Under the pieces are notes generated by a model that was not told the DNA's origin, did no database searches, and was given only the letters and a program-made list of their open reading frames with translations. Shown here piece after piece: positions 22,051-49,621 of a stretch of DNA of 50,822 bases. Origin of the DNA: Chloroflexota bacterium (GTDB taxonomy: Bacteria; Chloroflexota; Anaerolineae; Anaerolineales; Anaerolineaceae); assembly GCA_012799995.1 (NCBI GenBank), contig JAAZKE010000082.1:1-50822 (forward strand), written 5' to 3'. Within the stretch, counting starts at the first letter, position 1. Every line of letters starts with the position of its first letter. The translations under genes and the position numbers were made by a program.

Positions 22051-22084
22051 TAAAGAAAAAGCAACCCCGGAAATCCGGGGCTGC
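22051..22084 (-). terminator. Rho-independent terminator after the sortase gene
   Basis: On the minus strand a GC-rich stem (GCAGCCCCGG at 22084-22075 pairing with CCGGGGTTGC, with an ATTT loop) is followed by TTTTTCTTTA. It lies 26 bp beyond the sortase stop codon and before the mgtC-like gene. It separates the two transcription units. Confidence 0.88.
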
Positions 22085-22109
22085 TGTCCAATGTATCTTG
22101 TTGTCAGTT

Positions 22110-24659
22110 TCAGGGCAGATAAGGTTCGGAATTGACCAGCGTTGCCTGAACGATGTAGCGTTTCTGATATTTATCCGTGATGAAATTGTAGTCATCGCAA
22201 GTTACCAGCGTCAGGGAGCGGTCGCCATTCGGCTGGAACATCTGATAGACGTCGGTCGGTTGCGTCCAATAGGAGTTGGTGACCGAATAGGTGTACTTCA
22301 TGCCATCGTTGCCAAAGACGATGATCTCATCCTCTAGCCTCAGGTTCACCAGGTTAACGAACACACCCTGTGAATAGTAGTGGCCTGTCAGCACCGAGTT
22401 GCCGGCATACGGCAGATAAGCGCCGCCTTCCAGCTCACCAATGTACCCGCCCAGCATTTTCAGGTTCCAACCGCTTTCAAGGGTGCCATCCCTGTAATTG
22501 AGATGAACGATCGGCACACCGCCATCCATTCCCAGACCAATTGCCGGGATCTGCAGTGAGTTCCCGGTAAAGATAAAGGAACCGTCTCCCTGTGCCAACG
22601 GCGCCGGAGACCGTAGCGAATAGCCGGTTTCCGGGATGGCTTCCATCGGGCATTCAACATACTGAACGTCGATGAACAGGTTCATGTTGTCCTTGTTGGT
22701 GGTGCGCTGGTACGCCATAATGTATTCAAACTGATTCGGTCCATCTTTCATCGGCGGACGCTTAGAAATATAGATTCGTCCACCCTTTACAATCGCGCGC
22801 GTCATCGGCGGCAGCTCAATCCGGTCAGGTTTGCACACCGCACCGGACGCGCTGTATCCATCCGCCAGCACCTGCCAGTCGCAATACAGCTCGCTGATAT
22901 TGCCGGCCATCGGGACGGTGGAAATCGACGGGTTGAAGTTGAATACCAGCCGCTGGTTAGAGTAATTGGAGAGAAAGCCGTAGTGTTCGTCAATAGCTTC
23001 AAATTCGAGCGACTGTGGATTGTGATTTTCCTTGCAGCCAGCCCATTTCGTCTTATAGAATCCATCCTTACCAGAGCTCAGACAGGTGGCATCGCCGCCC
23101 TTCTGCGGGATGGTAACAAATAGTTCCAGCCCGTATTTGGCCGGATCATTCGGAAACCCATCAGCAGGGTTTGTATTTTTATAAAAGCCGCGGATACGGT
23201 AGGTTCCGGCTGTCCTGGCGGCAAAATCAAGGCTCCTGAGTCTCGTATTTGCAACATTCCCAAAAAATTTCATGCGGATTTTGGAAACAACATCCCCCCA
23301 GATACCGACATAACCATATAAACGGTTATCAGTTTCCGGGTCTTTCACATGCACAAGGGTAACGTAAGCGTCGGAGCCAACGACATGCGTACAGGTGGCA
23401 TCAGCACATTTCTGAACGTGGAAATAGACATCACGCCAACTGGCCGTACTGAAGGTTGCGCTTCCTTGGAATGAGCTATTAAAGTAGGTCGGTATAGGTG
23501 TATCTGCAGGAAGAGGAAGCTTGAAAATCTGTCTTGATGTCAGACATGGATCAATAGGTGTAGTTGTAATGTATTTTGCAGGATCATTACACATTATTGC
23601 GGATTGCATTGGTATACTGCGCTGGAAATGGAAAGTGGAGTTCTGAATGCCAAGAGTTGGGTCGACGTTTTTATAATAAATATCGAACACAAACGGTACC
23701 GACAACGGCATTAGTTCCGGGGCAACCTGACGCTCTATTTTAATAGACCCCTCTACCAGCTTTATTGGAGTTTTCGTATCTTTCCATGCTTTTTTTCTAT
23801 TGTCATTCCATACAAAATCCGAAGGTGCAGGCTCAGTGCCCCTGGTGTAGACATAAACCAGCTCCAGGTGGTCATCGGGGTCAGAATCCGCATCATCTCC
23901 ACCGTCGAATTTCAGGTGGAGAGTATAGTCAAAGGCATCGATTTTTGGGAAGGGAACAATCGCCCAACGTTCCGCATCTATCGTTTCGTTTAAGGGGAAA
24001 CTTACAATCGTAAACGGGTTGGTTGTGCTCTCATAGAAGCTGAAGGTTTGGATTTTCTCTGCAGTTTCACAGGTATTAAAGATAAAATTGAGAGGATTCT
24101 TGGGGGTAAATGGTGCCGGCGCCTGGTTCCAGGCACAGGCGCTCGACATAAAATTGATCGGCGCAATACCAGAGAAGATTTCGTTAGTTGTATTCAGGTT
24201 TTCTACAGAAATTTTATAATCGCCGGTAACTAATTTATCCCCATCAAATTTTGGGATAAAGCGAACGCTGATACGACCTATCGTCCCGCCAGCCGGGAAA
24301 CTGTTACAACTGAAGGAATTGTCGTCCGGAGCAGTTGTCAGTTGTTGACATTGATAGGCTGTTCCGCCGGTAGCAGTGGCATAAAGAACCACTTCTGTCA
24401 CATTATCAGTACCGGCAGTATGATAGTCAGCTCCGCCTGGATCGAGTATATTCACCTGGATCCGATCCCGCCAGATTTCGGTTTGTTCCGGTGGGATTGA
24501 TACAGTAGCAGTGAACTGGATTCCATCATTCTTTAAATCTTTGCAGTCGCTTGTAGTTGAGAAGGTCACCGCTTCCGCCGTGGTAAAGAACAGGCCAAAG
24601 ATCGCGAATACCACGATCAAGCTGACCACATGCAAGAAAAGGATTTTATTTGATTTCAT
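22110..24659 (-). CDS. Large secreted or anchored protein with C-terminal sortase domain
   Basis: This 849-residue protein has a signal peptide or anchor (about 1-30, ending TTAEA). About 640 residues of extracellular, mostly beta-predicted sequence follow, in which DIYYKNVDPTLG and GFYKNTNPADG may mark a repeated module. A C-terminal sortase domain (about 690-849) has His760 in SVLTGHYYSQG, Cys821 in LTLVTCDDY and Arg834 in KRYIVQA, the complete catalytic triad. A sorting-signal-like IPETG (675-679) lies just before the catalytic domain. Sortases join proteins to wall or pilus nucleophiles by transpeptidation. No separate substrate with a C-terminal LPXTG signal is in the window. A good AAGGAG precedes the start, and a terminator follows the gene. 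Confidence 0.85.
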   Translation of the reverse strand: MKSNKILFLHVVSLIVVFAIFGLFFTTAEAVTFSTTSDCKDLKNDGIQFTATVSIPPEQTEIWRDRIQVNILDPGGADYHTAGTDNVTEVVLYATATGGTAYQCQQLTTAPDDNSFSCNSFPAGGTIGRISVRFIPKFDGDKLVTGDYKISVENLNTTNEIFSGIAPINFMSSACAWNQAPAPFTPKNPLNFIFNTCETAEKIQTFSFYESTTNPFTIVSFPLNETIDAERWAIVPFPKIDAFDYTLHLKFDGGDDADSDPDDHLELVYVYTRGTEPAPSDFVWNDNRKKAWKDTKTPIKLVEGSIKIERQVAPELMPLSVPFVFDIYYKNVDPTLGIQNSTFHFQRSIPMQSAIMCNDPAKYITTTPIDPCLTSRQIFKLPLPADTPIPTYFNSSFQGSATFSTASWRDVYFHVQKCADATCTHVVGSDAYVTLVHVKDPETDNRLYGYVGIWGDVVSKIRMKFFGNVANTRLRSLDFAARTAGTYRIRGFYKNTNPADGFPNDPAKYGLELFVTIPQKGGDATCLSSGKDGFYKTKWAGCKENHNPQSLEFEAIDEHYGFLSNYSNQRLVFNFNPSISTVPMAGNISELYCDWQVLADGYSASGAVCKPDRIELPPMTRAIVKGGRIYISKRPPMKDGPNQFEYIMAYQRTTNKDNMNLFIDVQYVECPMEAIPETGYSLRSPAPLAQGDGSFIFTGNSLQIPAIGLGMDGGVPIVHLNYRDGTLESGWNLKMLGGYIGELEGGAYLPYAGNSVLTGHYYSQGVFVNLVNLRLEDEIIVFGNDGMKYTYSVTNSYWTQPTDVYQMFQPNGDRSLTLVTCDDYNFITDKYQKRYIVQATLVNSEPYLP

Positions 24660-24793: not shown

Positions 24794-27037
24794 TTAACGA
24801 TCCCCGTTCAAAATTAGTTCCGCAGACGTTGAACGTAGCAAAGCAAAGTCAACCATCCCAAATGAATCGAAGCGAATCGCCTCCTGTGGGTTCAATTGAT
24901 AGAGGGTTCCATTCTCGCTGACGCGGATTGGGTATGCAGTTCTGGCATCAACGATTCCCGGCTCTCCCTCATCAGTGATATAGATGACCGGCTGATCTTT
25001 AAATCCCTCACCATGCAGGAAGTAAATGACTTCTTCAGTAATCAGGTTCGTTTCATCCGCAGTTGCTGTCACCTTGCCAAGCACTGCCACCCCACCCGTT
25101 TCGCTGCCCTGATAGCTGAACAGATACAACGGGCGGTCGGGCTGATCGTTCAGGCTGGCTGCCAGGTCGTCTCTGCCCCCTGCCTGCAACTCCCCGCTGA
25201 CAAAGTCCCTGCCAGAATGGATGGTATTGAATTCGCCATACAGACGACGCGGAGGTCCCCAACTTGCCTCCCACATATACCACCCCGGATTCATGGAGAT
25301 CACAGTGGCGTTGTCCGGCAGAAAGTCAAACAACCCACTCTCAAGCGCCTGTTCGCCGGTTTGTCTCGGATAATAAAAAACCCGATCCATCCAATGTGTG
25401 ACCAGACGATTATGCTGAGTGGTCACCAGAAAAACAACTGCGATCAAAGCCAGCAGAAAGCCTTGCAGAAAAGCATTTCGCCTTCGGAGAAGGCGGCTGA
25501 CAAGCAATGCCAGCACGATTGCCACACCGAACAGGCTGATATATACCGGCAGGTATCCCAGCCCGGGCACCAGTTGCCCCTGGTAGCGCGTGCTGAGAGC
25601 GATCGTGACGGCCGGCAACAGGAACAGGCACAGACCCAGCGCAAGCGCCGGTCGCAACGCCCTATTCCCGTTCCCATTCCCGCTCTCCGTATACCAGCGC
25701 TGAAAAATCAAGACGGCGCTGAAAACCAACAACCATACCAGCAGGTAATCGGCTGTATCGTTGCCGCGCAGGATCTCGTCTGAGGACTGGCGAAAGAAGC
25801 CATCTGCCAGCGTGATCTGCTCCATCGCCGTCAGTTGATCGGTGAAGGTATAGTAACTGAGCGGCAGCGCTGCCAGCAGCTGAATCCCATAGGTGCGCAA
25901 AATCGCGGACAGTTTCCACTTGAACCGCACCCCCTCATACACTTCTGCCGTGGGCAGATTCAGCCGCAGGATCAAAACTACTCCCAACAATACCAGACAG
26001 ATCAGCAGAAAAGGCAGTATCGCCTTGATCGTTTGTTTCAGTGAGATTCCCTCCGCCCAGCACAGCAACGGAATCAACAATCCAAAAGGAAAGACGACTT
26101 CATAAATCATGCAGCCTACCATGTAAGCGGCAAGGCTGAAAATCAGATTTCGCTTTTGTCCGCCGCGCAGATAACGCGTGAAAAAGTAAGCCATCAACAG
26201 AATCGTGATTAACAGCACCTGCATCAGACCGTAAAATCCACTGACCGGATCCTGGTAGGCACGCAGCTGAATTAACAGCGGGATCAACAGCATCGTGAAT
26301 TGTCCCAGCGAAAGGCTGCCGGTCATGTAGGTGAGTACGACGCGTACCACCAGCTGGCAAGCCAGCACCAGTGCAATGATCAGCGCCTTATAAGCTGCCA
26401 CACTTGGGATATAAAACAGGAAATAATAGTAAGCTGAAAGTACGTTAATCCTGCCCAGCGCCAGATATTTTCCCATAAAACTCAGCAGGTTTTGAATTAA
26501 CGGGATGCCGTCCTGCCGTTCAAACAAATACTGCGTCGAATTTAGCGCGTCATCCCAGTAATACCCGCTCGGCACCAACATCCGCAACGACAACGCCGTG
26601 ATTGCCAACAGCAACAGTTCAATGCCCCAGTTCCCGAAGAATTCTATGAAGGGCGCTGACCAACTGTGATTTTCATCCCTGACCTTCATCGATTTCCGCT
26701 CGAAGATCAGTGCGTAAATTCGCAACCCAAAGCCGTAAACGATAAAAGTCAGGAACAACCAGGAAACTCGTCTCAGAGGCACGAATGCCTGAAAAATCTG
26801 CACACTGGAAGCGGTCATCGCCATCGCAGTTTTCCACCCAAAACCGATCGCCAGCGCCAGCCAGGCGATTCGTTTCTCCCGCGTCATCCCGAGGCGAAGA
26901 TCTGTCAGAAAAGCAACCGCCAGCAGGGAAAGCAACAACGGAATCATTTTGCGGGACGCGAATACGCCTGCGATAAAAAGAACTCCCAGCACAGCCATCA
27001 AGCTATAAAAAAGCACATTCAGAGGGGAACGTTTCAT
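24794..27037 (-). CDS. GT-C-like multi-pass membrane protein, first member of a tandem paralogue pair
   Basis: This 747-residue protein has about a dozen predicted helices in the first 560 residues and a soluble C-terminal part of about 190 residues. The first extracytoplasmic loop carries GYYWDDA (WDD at 161-163), an acidic motif like that of GT-C glycosyltransferases and related mannosyltransferases. The segments YQDPVSGFYGLMQVLL and GGQKRNLIFSLAAYMVG match the next gene (27039-29264) closely, as does the C-terminus (GTLYQLN... RFDSFGMVDF). The function is inferred only: a lipid-linked sugar transferase or polymer-handling protein. It lies 1 bp after its paralogue, so the pair is an operon, and the sortase gene follows after 134 bp. 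Confidence 0.75.
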   Translation of the reverse strand: MKRSPLNVLFYSLMAVLGVLFIAGVFASRKMIPLLLSLLAVAFLTDLRLGMTREKRIAWLALAIGFGWKTAMAMTASSVQIFQAFVPLRRVSWLFLTFIVYGFGLRIYALIFERKSMKVRDENHSWSAPFIEFFGNWGIELLLLAITALSLRMLVPSGYYWDDALNSTQYLFERQDGIPLIQNLLSFMGKYLALGRINVLSAYYYFLFYIPSVAAYKALIIALVLACQLVVRVVLTYMTGSLSLGQFTMLLIPLLIQLRAYQDPVSGFYGLMQVLLITILLMAYFFTRYLRGGQKRNLIFSLAAYMVGCMIYEVVFPFGLLIPLLCWAEGISLKQTIKAILPFLLICLVLLGVVLILRLNLPTAEVYEGVRFKWKLSAILRTYGIQLLAALPLSYYTFTDQLTAMEQITLADGFFRQSSDEILRGNDTADYLLVWLLVFSAVLIFQRWYTESGNGNGNRALRPALALGLCLFLLPAVTIALSTRYQGQLVPGLGYLPVYISLFGVAIVLALLVSRLLRRRNAFLQGFLLALIAVVFLVTTQHNRLVTHWMDRVFYYPRQTGEQALESGLFDFLPDNATVISMNPGWYMWEASWGPPRRLYGEFNTIHSGRDFVSGELQAGGRDDLAASLNDQPDRPLYLFSYQGSETGGVAVLGKVTATADETNLITEEVIYFLHGEGFKDQPVIYITDEGEPGIVDARTAYPIRVSENGTLYQLNPQEAIRFDSFGMVDFALLRSTSAELILNGDR

Positions 27038-27038
27038 A

Positions 27039-29264
27039 TCAGCGGAATTCTGTCAGCCCAATCGAATCAAAATACAGAGCATGCGGATCATCCAGCTTAT
27101 AGAGCGACCCTTTCTCCGTCCGCTCAATCAGCCAGGCATCTTTGACAGCCAGCGTTTGACCACTGCCATCCCACCTCGTCCAGGTCAGTGCGGCATCCGG
27201 CGAAACTGTTCCAGAAACAAATACATAACCATTTTTGACGACTGCGTTCAGCAACGTCCCACTTGTGCTCACGCCTTCGGCAAAGACCGGGTTCGCAGCC
27301 TTTGCCAGCCCATGCTGTTGATCAGCATCATAAGCAATAAGCACAAAAGACTGAGAAATTTCATCAAAGTGGATCTGACCATCAACGTTAACCAGACTCG
27401 CCAGTTCTGTATTTGTGAGCGTGTTTACTTTTCTGTCACTGTAGAGCGAGAAAAATACACCTTTGTCCGCTTTCCCGCTCCAGCCGCCTTCCCAGAGCTC
27501 ATTTTCGTTGTTCGAAATCACCAGTGACTGTTCATCGCCCGATTGAGCAAGAATACCAGCTTTAAGAGCAGCTTCTCCAGTTTTCCGCGGATAAAGCAGG
27601 CTCTCATTTATCAGCGAAAGGACCCGTCGGTTCGTTTGCTGATTGAATAGAAAAATCACCGTAAAAACTGCCAGCAGCAGCGCCATTCCAGCGCGCTTAT
27701 TGGTTTTCGCTGTCAGCCAACAGAAAGTAGCCCCAAGAAGATAAGCCACGCCAAAATAGCTGAACCAAATTGGGAGATAGCCAATGCCAAATGTAATCTG
27801 GAACTGGTATTTTTCGCTCAGCGCAATCACCAGTCCTGAGGCGGCCAGCAGAACCGCTCCGAACAGCCAGTGATATTTCCGTGGCTGATCCGCTGCCCGC
27901 ATTCGTTTGAACCAGGAGATCAGTAGCAATAACGCCGCAGTCACCGCTAACAGATCCTCCCAGCGAATCCCCTGCAGAAATTTCAACGGAGGGAGCGCAA
28001 AAATATCTCTCGCCTGGATCAGGCGATGATGAATGGTGGCGTCATTATCCGCCAGCCGATAGGTGAACGGGAAGGCTGCACTGATCTGATTGAACCAGGT
28101 CATAAGTATTTTCTCCGGGTTCATAGCAAACACCGTACCCTGATAAATCATGCAGGGTTGCACATTTTGCGCATATTGCCTTCGCAGCAGGAACGTCAAC
28201 CCCATCAGCAGCCCCTCTGCCAGCAGATAAGGCGCAGCACTGCGAATAGTTGCAGCCAGGGATTTTCTGCGCTCAAAGATGACCAGCAAAACCAGCAGGA
28301 TCATGGGATAGAACATCTCATACGACATCAAGCCAATCAGATAGAAAACCAAGCTGCCTGCCAGATATCGTTTTTTGCCACCATCCAGATATTTCAACAA
28401 CCAGATCAGCGAAATCATCAATTCCGCGAACATCATCTGCATCAATCCGTAATATCCGGTCATCGGGTCATGATAAATGCGGAACTGGATGCACAACGGC
28501 AGCATCAGCAGCATCACCGCACCGGGCAGATCGCGTCCCCAAAATCTGCGAATAAACTGATAAAACAAGACACAATCAAACGCGCTCAGCAGAATTAAAA
28601 ACGCCTTATAGGCAACCTCAGTTTGCAGGAAGTAAAAAGTAAGGAACTGGAAGGTCGCAAAGGGGTTGATTCTGCCTCGCCCTGCATACAACAACATCTC
28701 GTCCACCGTGCGTTTCCACACCGAAACGTCATCAAATTTCATCGCTGGAATCTGGCTCGAAAAGGAAGCATCGTCCCAATAGAATCCGCTTTTCAAAACC
28801 GGCAATGCAAAAATCAGCAGCACGAAACCCAGCAAGATCAACCGGTGTTCATGGATTTTGTCCCAAAATGGTTTATTCTCTAGCCGGATAATTGAGCGCG
28901 ATCGCAGAAAAGCTCCAGTGAAAAGGATGATCCAGGCGATAAAATTCCAGCGCAGCAAACCCTGTGCAACTAACGTATCTGGAGAGGAACCAACAATTAT
29001 GATCGACAGCGCATGGATCAGACAGCCGACCAGTACCAGCAACCATGCAACTCGCTTCCAGCTGGAATCTCCCGATCGGGCGAAGTCAAACGCGGCACAG
29101 GCGACAGCAATCAACAGAATTAAGACACCCTGTCGGATCGGTCCAATCGGCGGGTTCATCGGGTTGACCAGATCCCCCTTAAGAAAAATCCATCCAATGG
29201 CAAGAATACTTAGGATTGCCACCATCATGAGTGCAGATTTCAGCTTAACGGTTTTCCGAAACAT
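27039..29264 (-). CDS. GT-C-like multi-pass membrane protein, second member of the tandem pair
   Basis: This 741-residue paralogue of the downstream neighbour shares topology and motifs: GFYWDDA (WDD at 163-165), YHDPMTGYYGLMQMMF, GGKKRYLAGSLVFYLIG with a following YEMFYP, and the C-terminal GSLYKLDDPHALYFDSIGL. The two have clearly diverged, most of all in the soluble C-terminal region, which suggests different substrates rather than a recent copy. A TATAAT (29276-29271, minus strand) lies only 6 bp before the ATG, and GAGG lies too close to be an ideal ribosome-binding site, so the mRNA may be leaderless. Confidence 0.75.
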   Translation of the reverse strand: MFRKTVKLKSALMMVAILSILAIGWIFLKGDLVNPMNPPIGPIRQGVLILLIAVACAAFDFARSGDSSWKRVAWLLVLVGCLIHALSIIIVGSSPDTLVAQGLLRWNFIAWIILFTGAFLRSRSIIRLENKPFWDKIHEHRLILLGFVLLIFALPVLKSGFYWDDASFSSQIPAMKFDDVSVWKRTVDEMLLYAGRGRINPFATFQFLTFYFLQTEVAYKAFLILLSAFDCVLFYQFIRRFWGRDLPGAVMLLMLPLCIQFRIYHDPMTGYYGLMQMMFAELMISLIWLLKYLDGGKKRYLAGSLVFYLIGLMSYEMFYPMILLVLLVIFERRKSLAATIRSAAPYLLAEGLLMGLTFLLRRQYAQNVQPCMIYQGTVFAMNPEKILMTWFNQISAAFPFTYRLADNDATIHHRLIQARDIFALPPLKFLQGIRWEDLLAVTAALLLLISWFKRMRAADQPRKYHWLFGAVLLAASGLVIALSEKYQFQITFGIGYLPIWFSYFGVAYLLGATFCWLTAKTNKRAGMALLLAVFTVIFLFNQQTNRRVLSLINESLLYPRKTGEAALKAGILAQSGDEQSLVISNNENELWEGGWSGKADKGVFFSLYSDRKVNTLTNTELASLVNVDGQIHFDEISQSFVLIAYDADQQHGLAKAANPVFAEGVSTSGTLLNAVVKNGYVFVSGTVSPDAALTWTRWDGSGQTLAVKDAWLIERTEKGSLYKLDDPHALYFDSIGLTEFR

Positions 29265-29318: not shown

Positions 29319-29350
29319 AATATCCGCCCCTGCATGAGGCGGATATTTTT
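29319..29350 (-). terminator. Terminator of the symporter transcription unit
   Basis: AATATCCGCC (29319-29328) pairs perfectly with GGCGGATATT (29338-29347) around a nine-base loop. On the minus strand CTTTTCTC follows the stem, and on the plus strand only TTT. It lies about 40 bp after the symporter stop codon and before the GT-C-like operon, so it belongs to the symporter unit. Confidence 0.8.
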
Positions 29351-48848: not shown

Positions 48849-49621
48849 AGGACAACCTTTCTCCCGCCAATTTCTACCAGTTCAATTGGCGTCTCATAGA
48901 TAGTCTCCAGGTTATCCTTCGTCAGCACTTTATCCATCGGTCCGGCAACCAGCACTTTCCCTCTTTTCATCAAAATCACCTTGGTTGCAGCAGCAATTGC
49001 AAAATCCGGTTCATGGGAGGTTAACAGAATCGACTTACCCTGTCCTGCCAGACGATGCAGGATATCCAGAAAAAGCCGTTTGTTCCCCAGATCCAGTTGT
49101 GAGGAAGCTTCATCCAGCAGCAACACACCGGTCTGTTGTGCCAGGGCGCGTGCCAGCAGCACCAGCTGCAGCTGTCCGCCGCTCAATTTTGTCACCTTTT
49201 GATTCAAGTAGCGATCCATACCAACTTCATGGATGGCTTCTGTTGTAATTTCCATATCCTCCCTGCCGGGAACATCCAGCGGTTTCAACCAGGGAGTACG
49301 CCCCATACTGACGTATTCCTGCACGGTATAGTCAAACGAGATTTTTTCCTGTTGCGGGACGAAACCCAACCGTTGCCCGATTTCTCTTCGGGAATAGCTT
49401 TGTAGCGGACGCCCTTCATAGCGGATTTCCCCAGCCTCAGGCTTGAGCCTGCCATTGGCCAGTTTCAGCATGGTCGTTTTCCCTGACCCGTTTGGACCAA
49501 GCACCGCTGCAATCTGTCCGGGCTGGAGTGTCAGATTCACGTCCGAAACAGCTAACCCTTCTCCGGTATCATAGGTGAAATTGATCCTGCGCAGCTCAAA
49601 ACGAACCTCATGTACCTTCAT
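48839..49621 (-). CDS. ABC transporter ATPase, FecE/BtuD type
   Basis: This 260-residue ATPase energises metal-chelate import. It has Walker A GPNGSGKTT (42-50), Q-loop Gln90 (FVPQQ), signature LSGGQ (146-150), Walker B VLLLDEASS with Asp170 and catalytic Glu171, and switch His203 (TSHEPD). All residues needed for hydrolysis are intact. It lies between the two permease genes, 4 bp after the first and overlapping the second by 10 bp. Confidence 0.94.
   Translation of the reverse strand: MKVHEVRFELRRINFTYDTGEGLAVSDVNLTLQPGQIAAVLGPNGSGKTTMLKLANGRLKPEAGEIRYEGRPLQSYSRREIGQRLGFVPQQEKISFDYTVQEYVSMGRTPWLKPLDVPGREDMEITTEAIHEVGMDRYLNQKVTKLSGGQLQLVLLARALAQQTGVLLLDEASSQLDLGNKRLFLDILHRLAGQGKSILLTSHEPDFAIAAATKVILMKRGKVLVAGPMDKVLTKDNLETIYETPIELVEIGGRKVVLWT

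Follow-up and report, generated by a model that had tools for sequence, protein, structure and literature searches.

The question raised by this locus is why an exported protein of 849 residues should carry, at its C-terminal end, both a motif resembling a sortase substrate and a sortase domain. The gene lies on the minus strand at 22110-24659 of the window, by which we mean the whole stretch of 50,822 nucleotides that was analysed; the open reading frame and its translation place an ATG start at 24659, and no open frame was found on the plus strand over the same interval. The initial annotation had described an exported protein with an ectodomain of about 640 residues and a C-terminal sortase domain, and each of these parts is borne out by the reading frame, an apparent signal peptide and the Pfam search. 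Residues 1 to about 30 (24570-24659, minus strand) look by eye like a Sec signal peptide, being basic at the N-terminus, hydrophobic in the core and closed by AEA (MKSNKILFLHVVSLIVVFAIFGLFFTTAEA). The ectodomain, residues 31 to about 670 (22650-24569), is beta-rich, strands predominating in a structural model of low to moderate confidence, and matches no Pfam family; outside the sortase domain, the search of the whole protein likewise returned none. The sortase domain, residues about 700-842 (22134-22562), was assigned from its catalytic residues and from PF04203, which covers residues 703-842 with an E-value of 5.7e-18 and 65.3 bits against a Pfam cut-off of 26.6. The proposed triad is present, with His760 encoded at 22380-22382, Cys821 at 22197-22199 and Arg834 at 22158-22160, all on the minus strand.

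Between these two parts stands IPETG, residues 675-679 (22623-22637, minus strand), in the place claimed for it, where the ectodomain meets the sortase domain. The sorting-like motif is conserved in orthologues and in the aligned proteins of the same layout described below. Orthologues of the window protein occur in ten genomes of a genus-level group; its closest named relatives are Anaerolineaceae, including Leptolinea sp. UBA5366 and the named strain Flexilinea flocculi TC1, in which the orthologue is L038. Across seven orthologues, His760, Cys821 and Arg834 are invariant, as are the I, P, T and G of the motif. Canonical sorting substrates, too, are exported and have an LPxTG-like motif close to the C-terminal end, but no clear transmembrane helix with a positively charged tail follows IPETG in the window protein; the sortase domain is found there instead. 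The protein also falls below every cut-off of the NCBIfam sortase classes C, D, E, F and GN, its best score being 36.3 bits against the 165 set for class D.

The gene appears to belong to a short operon. A terminator-like hairpin of 11 pairs, found by consensus scan, lies directly 3' of the stop codon (22060-22085, minus strand). Directly upstream, in the same direction, is a gene for a polytopic membrane protein of 747 residues (24794-27037, minus strand) with a GT-C-like WDD motif noticed by eye, and the next gene upstream encodes its 741-residue paralogue (27039-29264, minus strand). Another hairpin of this kind, with 12 pairs (29319-29347, minus strand, same scan), marks the upstream boundary, and because terminator-like sites precede the first membrane protein gene and follow the sortase gene, a three-gene operon is likely. 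In eight of the ten genomes (the window's own, G001, G004, G005, G006, G007, G012 and G013), the window-type gene has homologues of the membrane protein pair upstream of it; in G009 and G010 none were found. The two paralogues match no Pfam or NCBIfam family; their YYWDD/FYWDD motif suggests that they are possibly GT-C glycosyltransferases, and that enzymes of this type might glycosylate the ectodomain is a guess from the motif.

To place the protein among its relatives, PF04203 was searched in 41 genomes, most of which hold two populations of sortases: one high-scoring protein of about 300 residues, and long open reading frames with a sortase domain, ranging from several hundred residues to over 3000 and reaching 3838 with the window protein as the query. 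The former, a housekeeping membrane sortase, turned up in nearly every genome examined and is represented in the window's genome by L003. In G012 (4.8 Mb) there are 46 sortase-domain matches, most of those listed lying in long frames, which amounts to a strong local expansion. A further 100 regions were fetched by their sortase domain and not by the motif, giving 146 distinct sortase proteins in all. Conservation of the triad extends to this wider set, with His in all 146 and Cys and Arg in 145 each; the sole protein short of the latter two (L078) is a truncated frame. A decayed sortase is ruled out by these intact catalytic residues.

The place of the motif was assessed in 94 long non-housekeeping proteins, nearly all from the window's order, that have at least 250 residues ahead of the sortase domain. 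Eighty-eight of them carry [LIVM]PxTG within 80 residues ahead of the domain, well above the 0.015 occurrences per 80 residues (1.5%) found elsewhere in the same ectodomains; in housekeeping sortases, the motif precedes the domain in none of 31. Three of the six exceptions have a near variant in its place (LPASG, TPKTG or NPLTG), and the motif is absent from the other three, L144, L146 and L157. Its position varies little: in 77 proteins it lies at -40 or -41, counted from the domain start. Directly after the five motif residues, as the sixth, comes F in 82 proteins and Y in 7. In 54 aligned proteins of this layout, the P and G are invariant. Within the largest subgroup (60 sequences), each of the fifteen columns ahead of the motif holds only 0.25-0.62 bits, and the next six hold 2.7, 4.0, 1.2, 3.1, 3.5 and 4.7; this sharp rise indicates that the conserved module starts exactly at the L of LPxTG. 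Judged from the alignment, such an onset is the pattern to be expected of a sorting signal. Some columns on the C-terminal side of the motif are also conserved in the main subgroup, so that the linker is not wholly free.

Chance occurrence of the motif is ruled out by these counts together with the abrupt onset of conservation. Also rejected was a general sortase trait of the phylum, since the housekeeping sortases have no motif and matches from outside the order mostly start behind it. Stand-alone secreted sortases of about 190 residues in the window's order, which carry a signal peptide (L093, L163, L164 and L165, in G006, G012 and G013), have no motif either; two of them, L163 and L164, adjoin a gene for a seemingly secreted protein. 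Two of the motif-less long proteins, L144 (878-4102, in G044) and L146 (910-8163, in G045), end in a sortase domain with no LPxTG ahead of it, and that of L144 clusters in the tree with ordinary membrane sortases; they are possibly independent fusions or cases of motif loss.

The ectodomains in front of this module are unrelated by Pfam. They include CnaB, subtilase, protein kinase, Ig-like, beta-propeller, cohesin with Big_2, SdrD_B, DUF11, YDG and S41 peptidase domains, and a von Willebrand A domain scoring just under the Pfam cut-off. The proteins stop 2-16 residues past the sortase domain, and no clear transmembrane segment was seen after the motif. As read from these sequences, LPxTG, linker and sortase domain form a portable C-terminal cassette that replaces the usual tail of LPxTG, transmembrane helix and charged residues. 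Profile and catalytic residues identify it as a sortase and the motif marks it as a predicted sorting substrate, which makes it a natural fusion of the two. The other cassettes, too, score far under every NCBIfam class cut-off. On a sortase-domain tree they fall into three deep subgroups, and presence of the motif requires 3 changes against 41 with shuffled labels, on a FastTree topology built from few columns and with many weak forks. The suggested check for a motif conserved at this exact junction has thus come out positively, in 88 of 94 long proteins, in three deep subgroups and with many unrelated ectodomains. As for the self-sorting surface protein envisaged in the initial annotation, the motif at the junction stands; the picture of a one-off giant sortase does not, the window protein being one member of a large fusion family in its order. 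Another member, L073 (649-3039, in G004), combines a PknB-like Ser/Thr kinase, one hydrophobic segment, a low-complexity stalk, LPRTGF and a sortase domain. This order fits a cytoplasmic kinase with the cassette outside, and the protein is possibly a wall-tethered receptor kinase.

The distribution of the cassette was surveyed in this phylum, plus plasmids and phages, and the 54-sequence alignment served as the query against 400 genomes of Chloroflexota. Strong matches covering the motif columns come from the window's order, mostly from long frames; of those listed from outside the order, the majority set in past the motif and belong to proteins of 200-400 residues. Ten regions were inspected, nine of them from outside the order and one a fragment from inside it, and none has an intact motif. 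Within these 400 genomes, the complete cassette appeared solely in the window's order, which its named relatives identify as Anaerolineales. A phage or plasmid origin was rejected. Two other cassettes, used to query viral contigs, brought up nothing close, and neither did the search of phages. Among the plasmid matches listed, the only near-full-length one comes from a Chloroflexota record whose annotation names a DUF11 protein, and the others begin past the motif.

Structural models were built with AlphaFold for the full-length protein and a fragment, with the window's own and close relatives' sequences as the only input, which accounts for their low confidence (mean pLDDT of 60 and 48, respectively). 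A motif buried in a strand had been named as an outcome that would speak against self-sorting. In both models, IPETG is coil, at a very low pLDDT of about 26, and neither model is good enough to show docking. For the fragment model (pLDDT 48), the top Foldseek matches are all sortases, none with E below 0.001; the full-length model gave loose matches to beta-sandwich proteins with TM-scores below 0.25, which were not used.

Canonical substrates were sought by reading LPxTGF patterns in context in three genomes, the window's own, G004 and G009. The only match in the window (49002-49019, minus strand) reads CTC CCA TGA ACC GGA TTT and was discarded as a substrate for its in-frame stop. Thus the earlier statement that no conventional LPXTG substrate lies nearby is correct for the window. 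It fails for the genome, where the Pro/Ser/Thr-rich protein L239 (1-1650) ends in LPDTGF, a transmembrane segment and RLLRNKR. Besides this protein, the LPxTGF proteins of the window's genome are cassettes and two proteins ending at or just past the motif. The plausible proteins with LPxTGF in G004 are cassettes only. In G009, where three of the 23 matches (92331, 126347 and 183607 on C1) and one on C2 (454306) were left out, the ones read comprise cassettes and one canonical LPETGF-TM protein, L286, with a tail matching that of L239. L239 and L286 are likely substrates of the housekeeping sortase. The two proteins that end at the motif are a papain-type protease (L236, 1-1536 on contig C17), which stops exactly at LPSTGF, and a CnaB protein (L243, 1520-3100 on C87), which stops with LPDTGFPVLYP; neither has a sortase domain or a transmembrane tail, and they are either truncated cassettes or unusual substrates acted on in trans. 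Canonical Pfam LPXTG anchors are otherwise rare, so that canonical substrates exist but look few.

The best explanation of this architecture, to which we assign a probability of roughly 60%, is self-sorting in cis. After Sec export, the C-terminal sortase domain would take the adjacent IPETG motif as its substrate. We infer that Cys821 would attack between Thr678 and Gly679 and hold the ectodomain as a thioester, that the ectodomain would then be handed to an amine of the cell envelope, most probably a peptidoglycan precursor, and that the spent sortase domain of about 170 residues would be set free. Peptidoglycan is a plausible acceptor, since the window's genome has four genes for PBP-type transpeptidases. 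Certain observations count against this reading: the conserved residues behind the motif argue against a purely disposable linker, L144 and L146 have the sortase domain and no motif, and L236 and L243 have the motif and no sortase domain.

The same arrangement could arise if the housekeeping membrane sortase of about 300 residues cut the motif in trans, and the C-terminal domain served to retain the precursor near the membrane or had some other task. Such an enzyme is at hand in nearly every genome searched, and the canonical LPxTGF-TM proteins of the window's genome and G009 carry the same motif as the cassettes; with L003 and L239 in one genome, some enzyme probably reads that motif in trans. 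A domain needed for mere retention, however, would have no use for strictly kept catalytic residues, and the cassette proteins have no transmembrane anchor by which the precursor could be held. The flavour of the motif bears on this point as well. Window-type proteins of ten genomes carry IPxTG[YIL]S, and LPxTGF prevails among the cassettes resident with them; the flavour appears to follow the protein's own sortase subgroup and not the genome, in a comparison of one clade with the rest. A single housekeeping cutter for all would lead one to expect one flavour per genome, and the two that are seen favour action in cis, although the difference could also be read as inheritance within a single clade. 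On balance we consider cutting by the housekeeping enzyme unlikely.

Alternatively, the motif may never be cut, acting as a pseudo-substrate or regulatory segment in or near the protein's own active site, with the whole protein displayed as a sortase for other proteins. Conservation running on behind the motif would suit such a role, and spending one enzyme domain per ectodomain on a single use would be costly; but the largest subgroup is conserved from the L onward with x variable, as in a substrate, separate substrates with a matching motif proved to be few, and the stand-alone secreted sortases of the order lack the motif. These points make the uncut motif quite improbable. Least likely of all, in our judgement very unlikely, is that the domain links its own LPxTG to a lysine on an adjacent copy and builds pilus-like chains, as class C sortases do. 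CnaB and SpaA-like domains, which are typical of sortase-built pili, do occur in several ectodomains, and the best curated class by name for L070, L073 and L074 is class C, at scores far below the cut-off. Yet most ectodomains share no domain able to supply a common acceptor lysine, and the window's genome holds a few unrelated cassettes with no obvious shaft protein. Taken together, the motif flavour, the few canonical substrates and the undecayed catalytic residues favour self-sorting, and the self-cleavage of engineered fusions with the same layout was counted on this side too.

In well-known systems, one sortase serves many substrates. Here, signal and enzyme travel together, so that every substrate would bring along an anchoring enzyme for one use only. 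The cassette is thus a candidate explanation, and a testable one, for the attachment of giant adhesins and enzymes to the surface of these bacteria, in which classic LPXTG substrates look scarce. A broader proposition, to which we would give even odds, is that a large share of the surface proteins of Anaerolineales is anchored by natural self-sorting, with a single-use cis-acting sortase per protein in parallel to one housekeeping sortase, and that signalling proteins, the PknB-like kinase for example, can be bound to the wall by the cassette as well. The orthologue L038 of F. flocculi TC1 makes the idea testable on a strain, beyond metagenome bins. Moreover, the family offers many natural fusions of target, LPxTG and sortase for protein ligation work, for which such fusions have hitherto been engineered.

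No report of natural LPxTG-sortase fusions, or of sortases of this order, was found in the open-access papers searched. The cassette can be compared with systems known from elsewhere. Like the canonical LPXTG signal (PF00746), it places LPxTG close to the C-terminal end of surface proteins that are exported and often have several domains; the canonical signal is cut by a separate housekeeping sortase, whereas the cassette has a complete sortase domain instead of the transmembrane helix and charged tail. With sortases of classes A-F and GN (NCBIfam) it shares the domain with His, Cys and Arg, but those enzymes have an N-terminal transmembrane anchor where the cassette proteins have a signal peptide, an ectodomain and LPxTG. 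In autoprocessing of the Hedgehog type, a C-terminal enzyme domain cuts itself off via a thioester and the N-terminal part passes to cholesterol. The thioester hand-over resembles the mechanism proposed here, but the fold is unrelated and the acceptor is cholesterol and not an amine, so that the likeness is one of analogy only. Closer counterparts are man-made: the purification by sortase self-cleavage attributed to Mao (2004) reportedly used an engineered fusion with the sortase first. In STEPL, an engineered fusion of target, LPETG and Staphylococcus aureus sortase releases the target joined to an amine (PMC11561820), and in BISOP, engineered SrtA-LPETG-protein fusions cut themselves (PMC2901362). 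STEPL and the cassette both unite sortase and LPxTG substrate in one chain, in the order of target, motif and sortase that is also found in the window protein; the Mao and BISOP fusions, with the sortase first, have the reverse order. All three were built with the S. aureus sortase, whereas the cassette is natural, is joined to many unrelated proteins and has its own diverged domain and linker.
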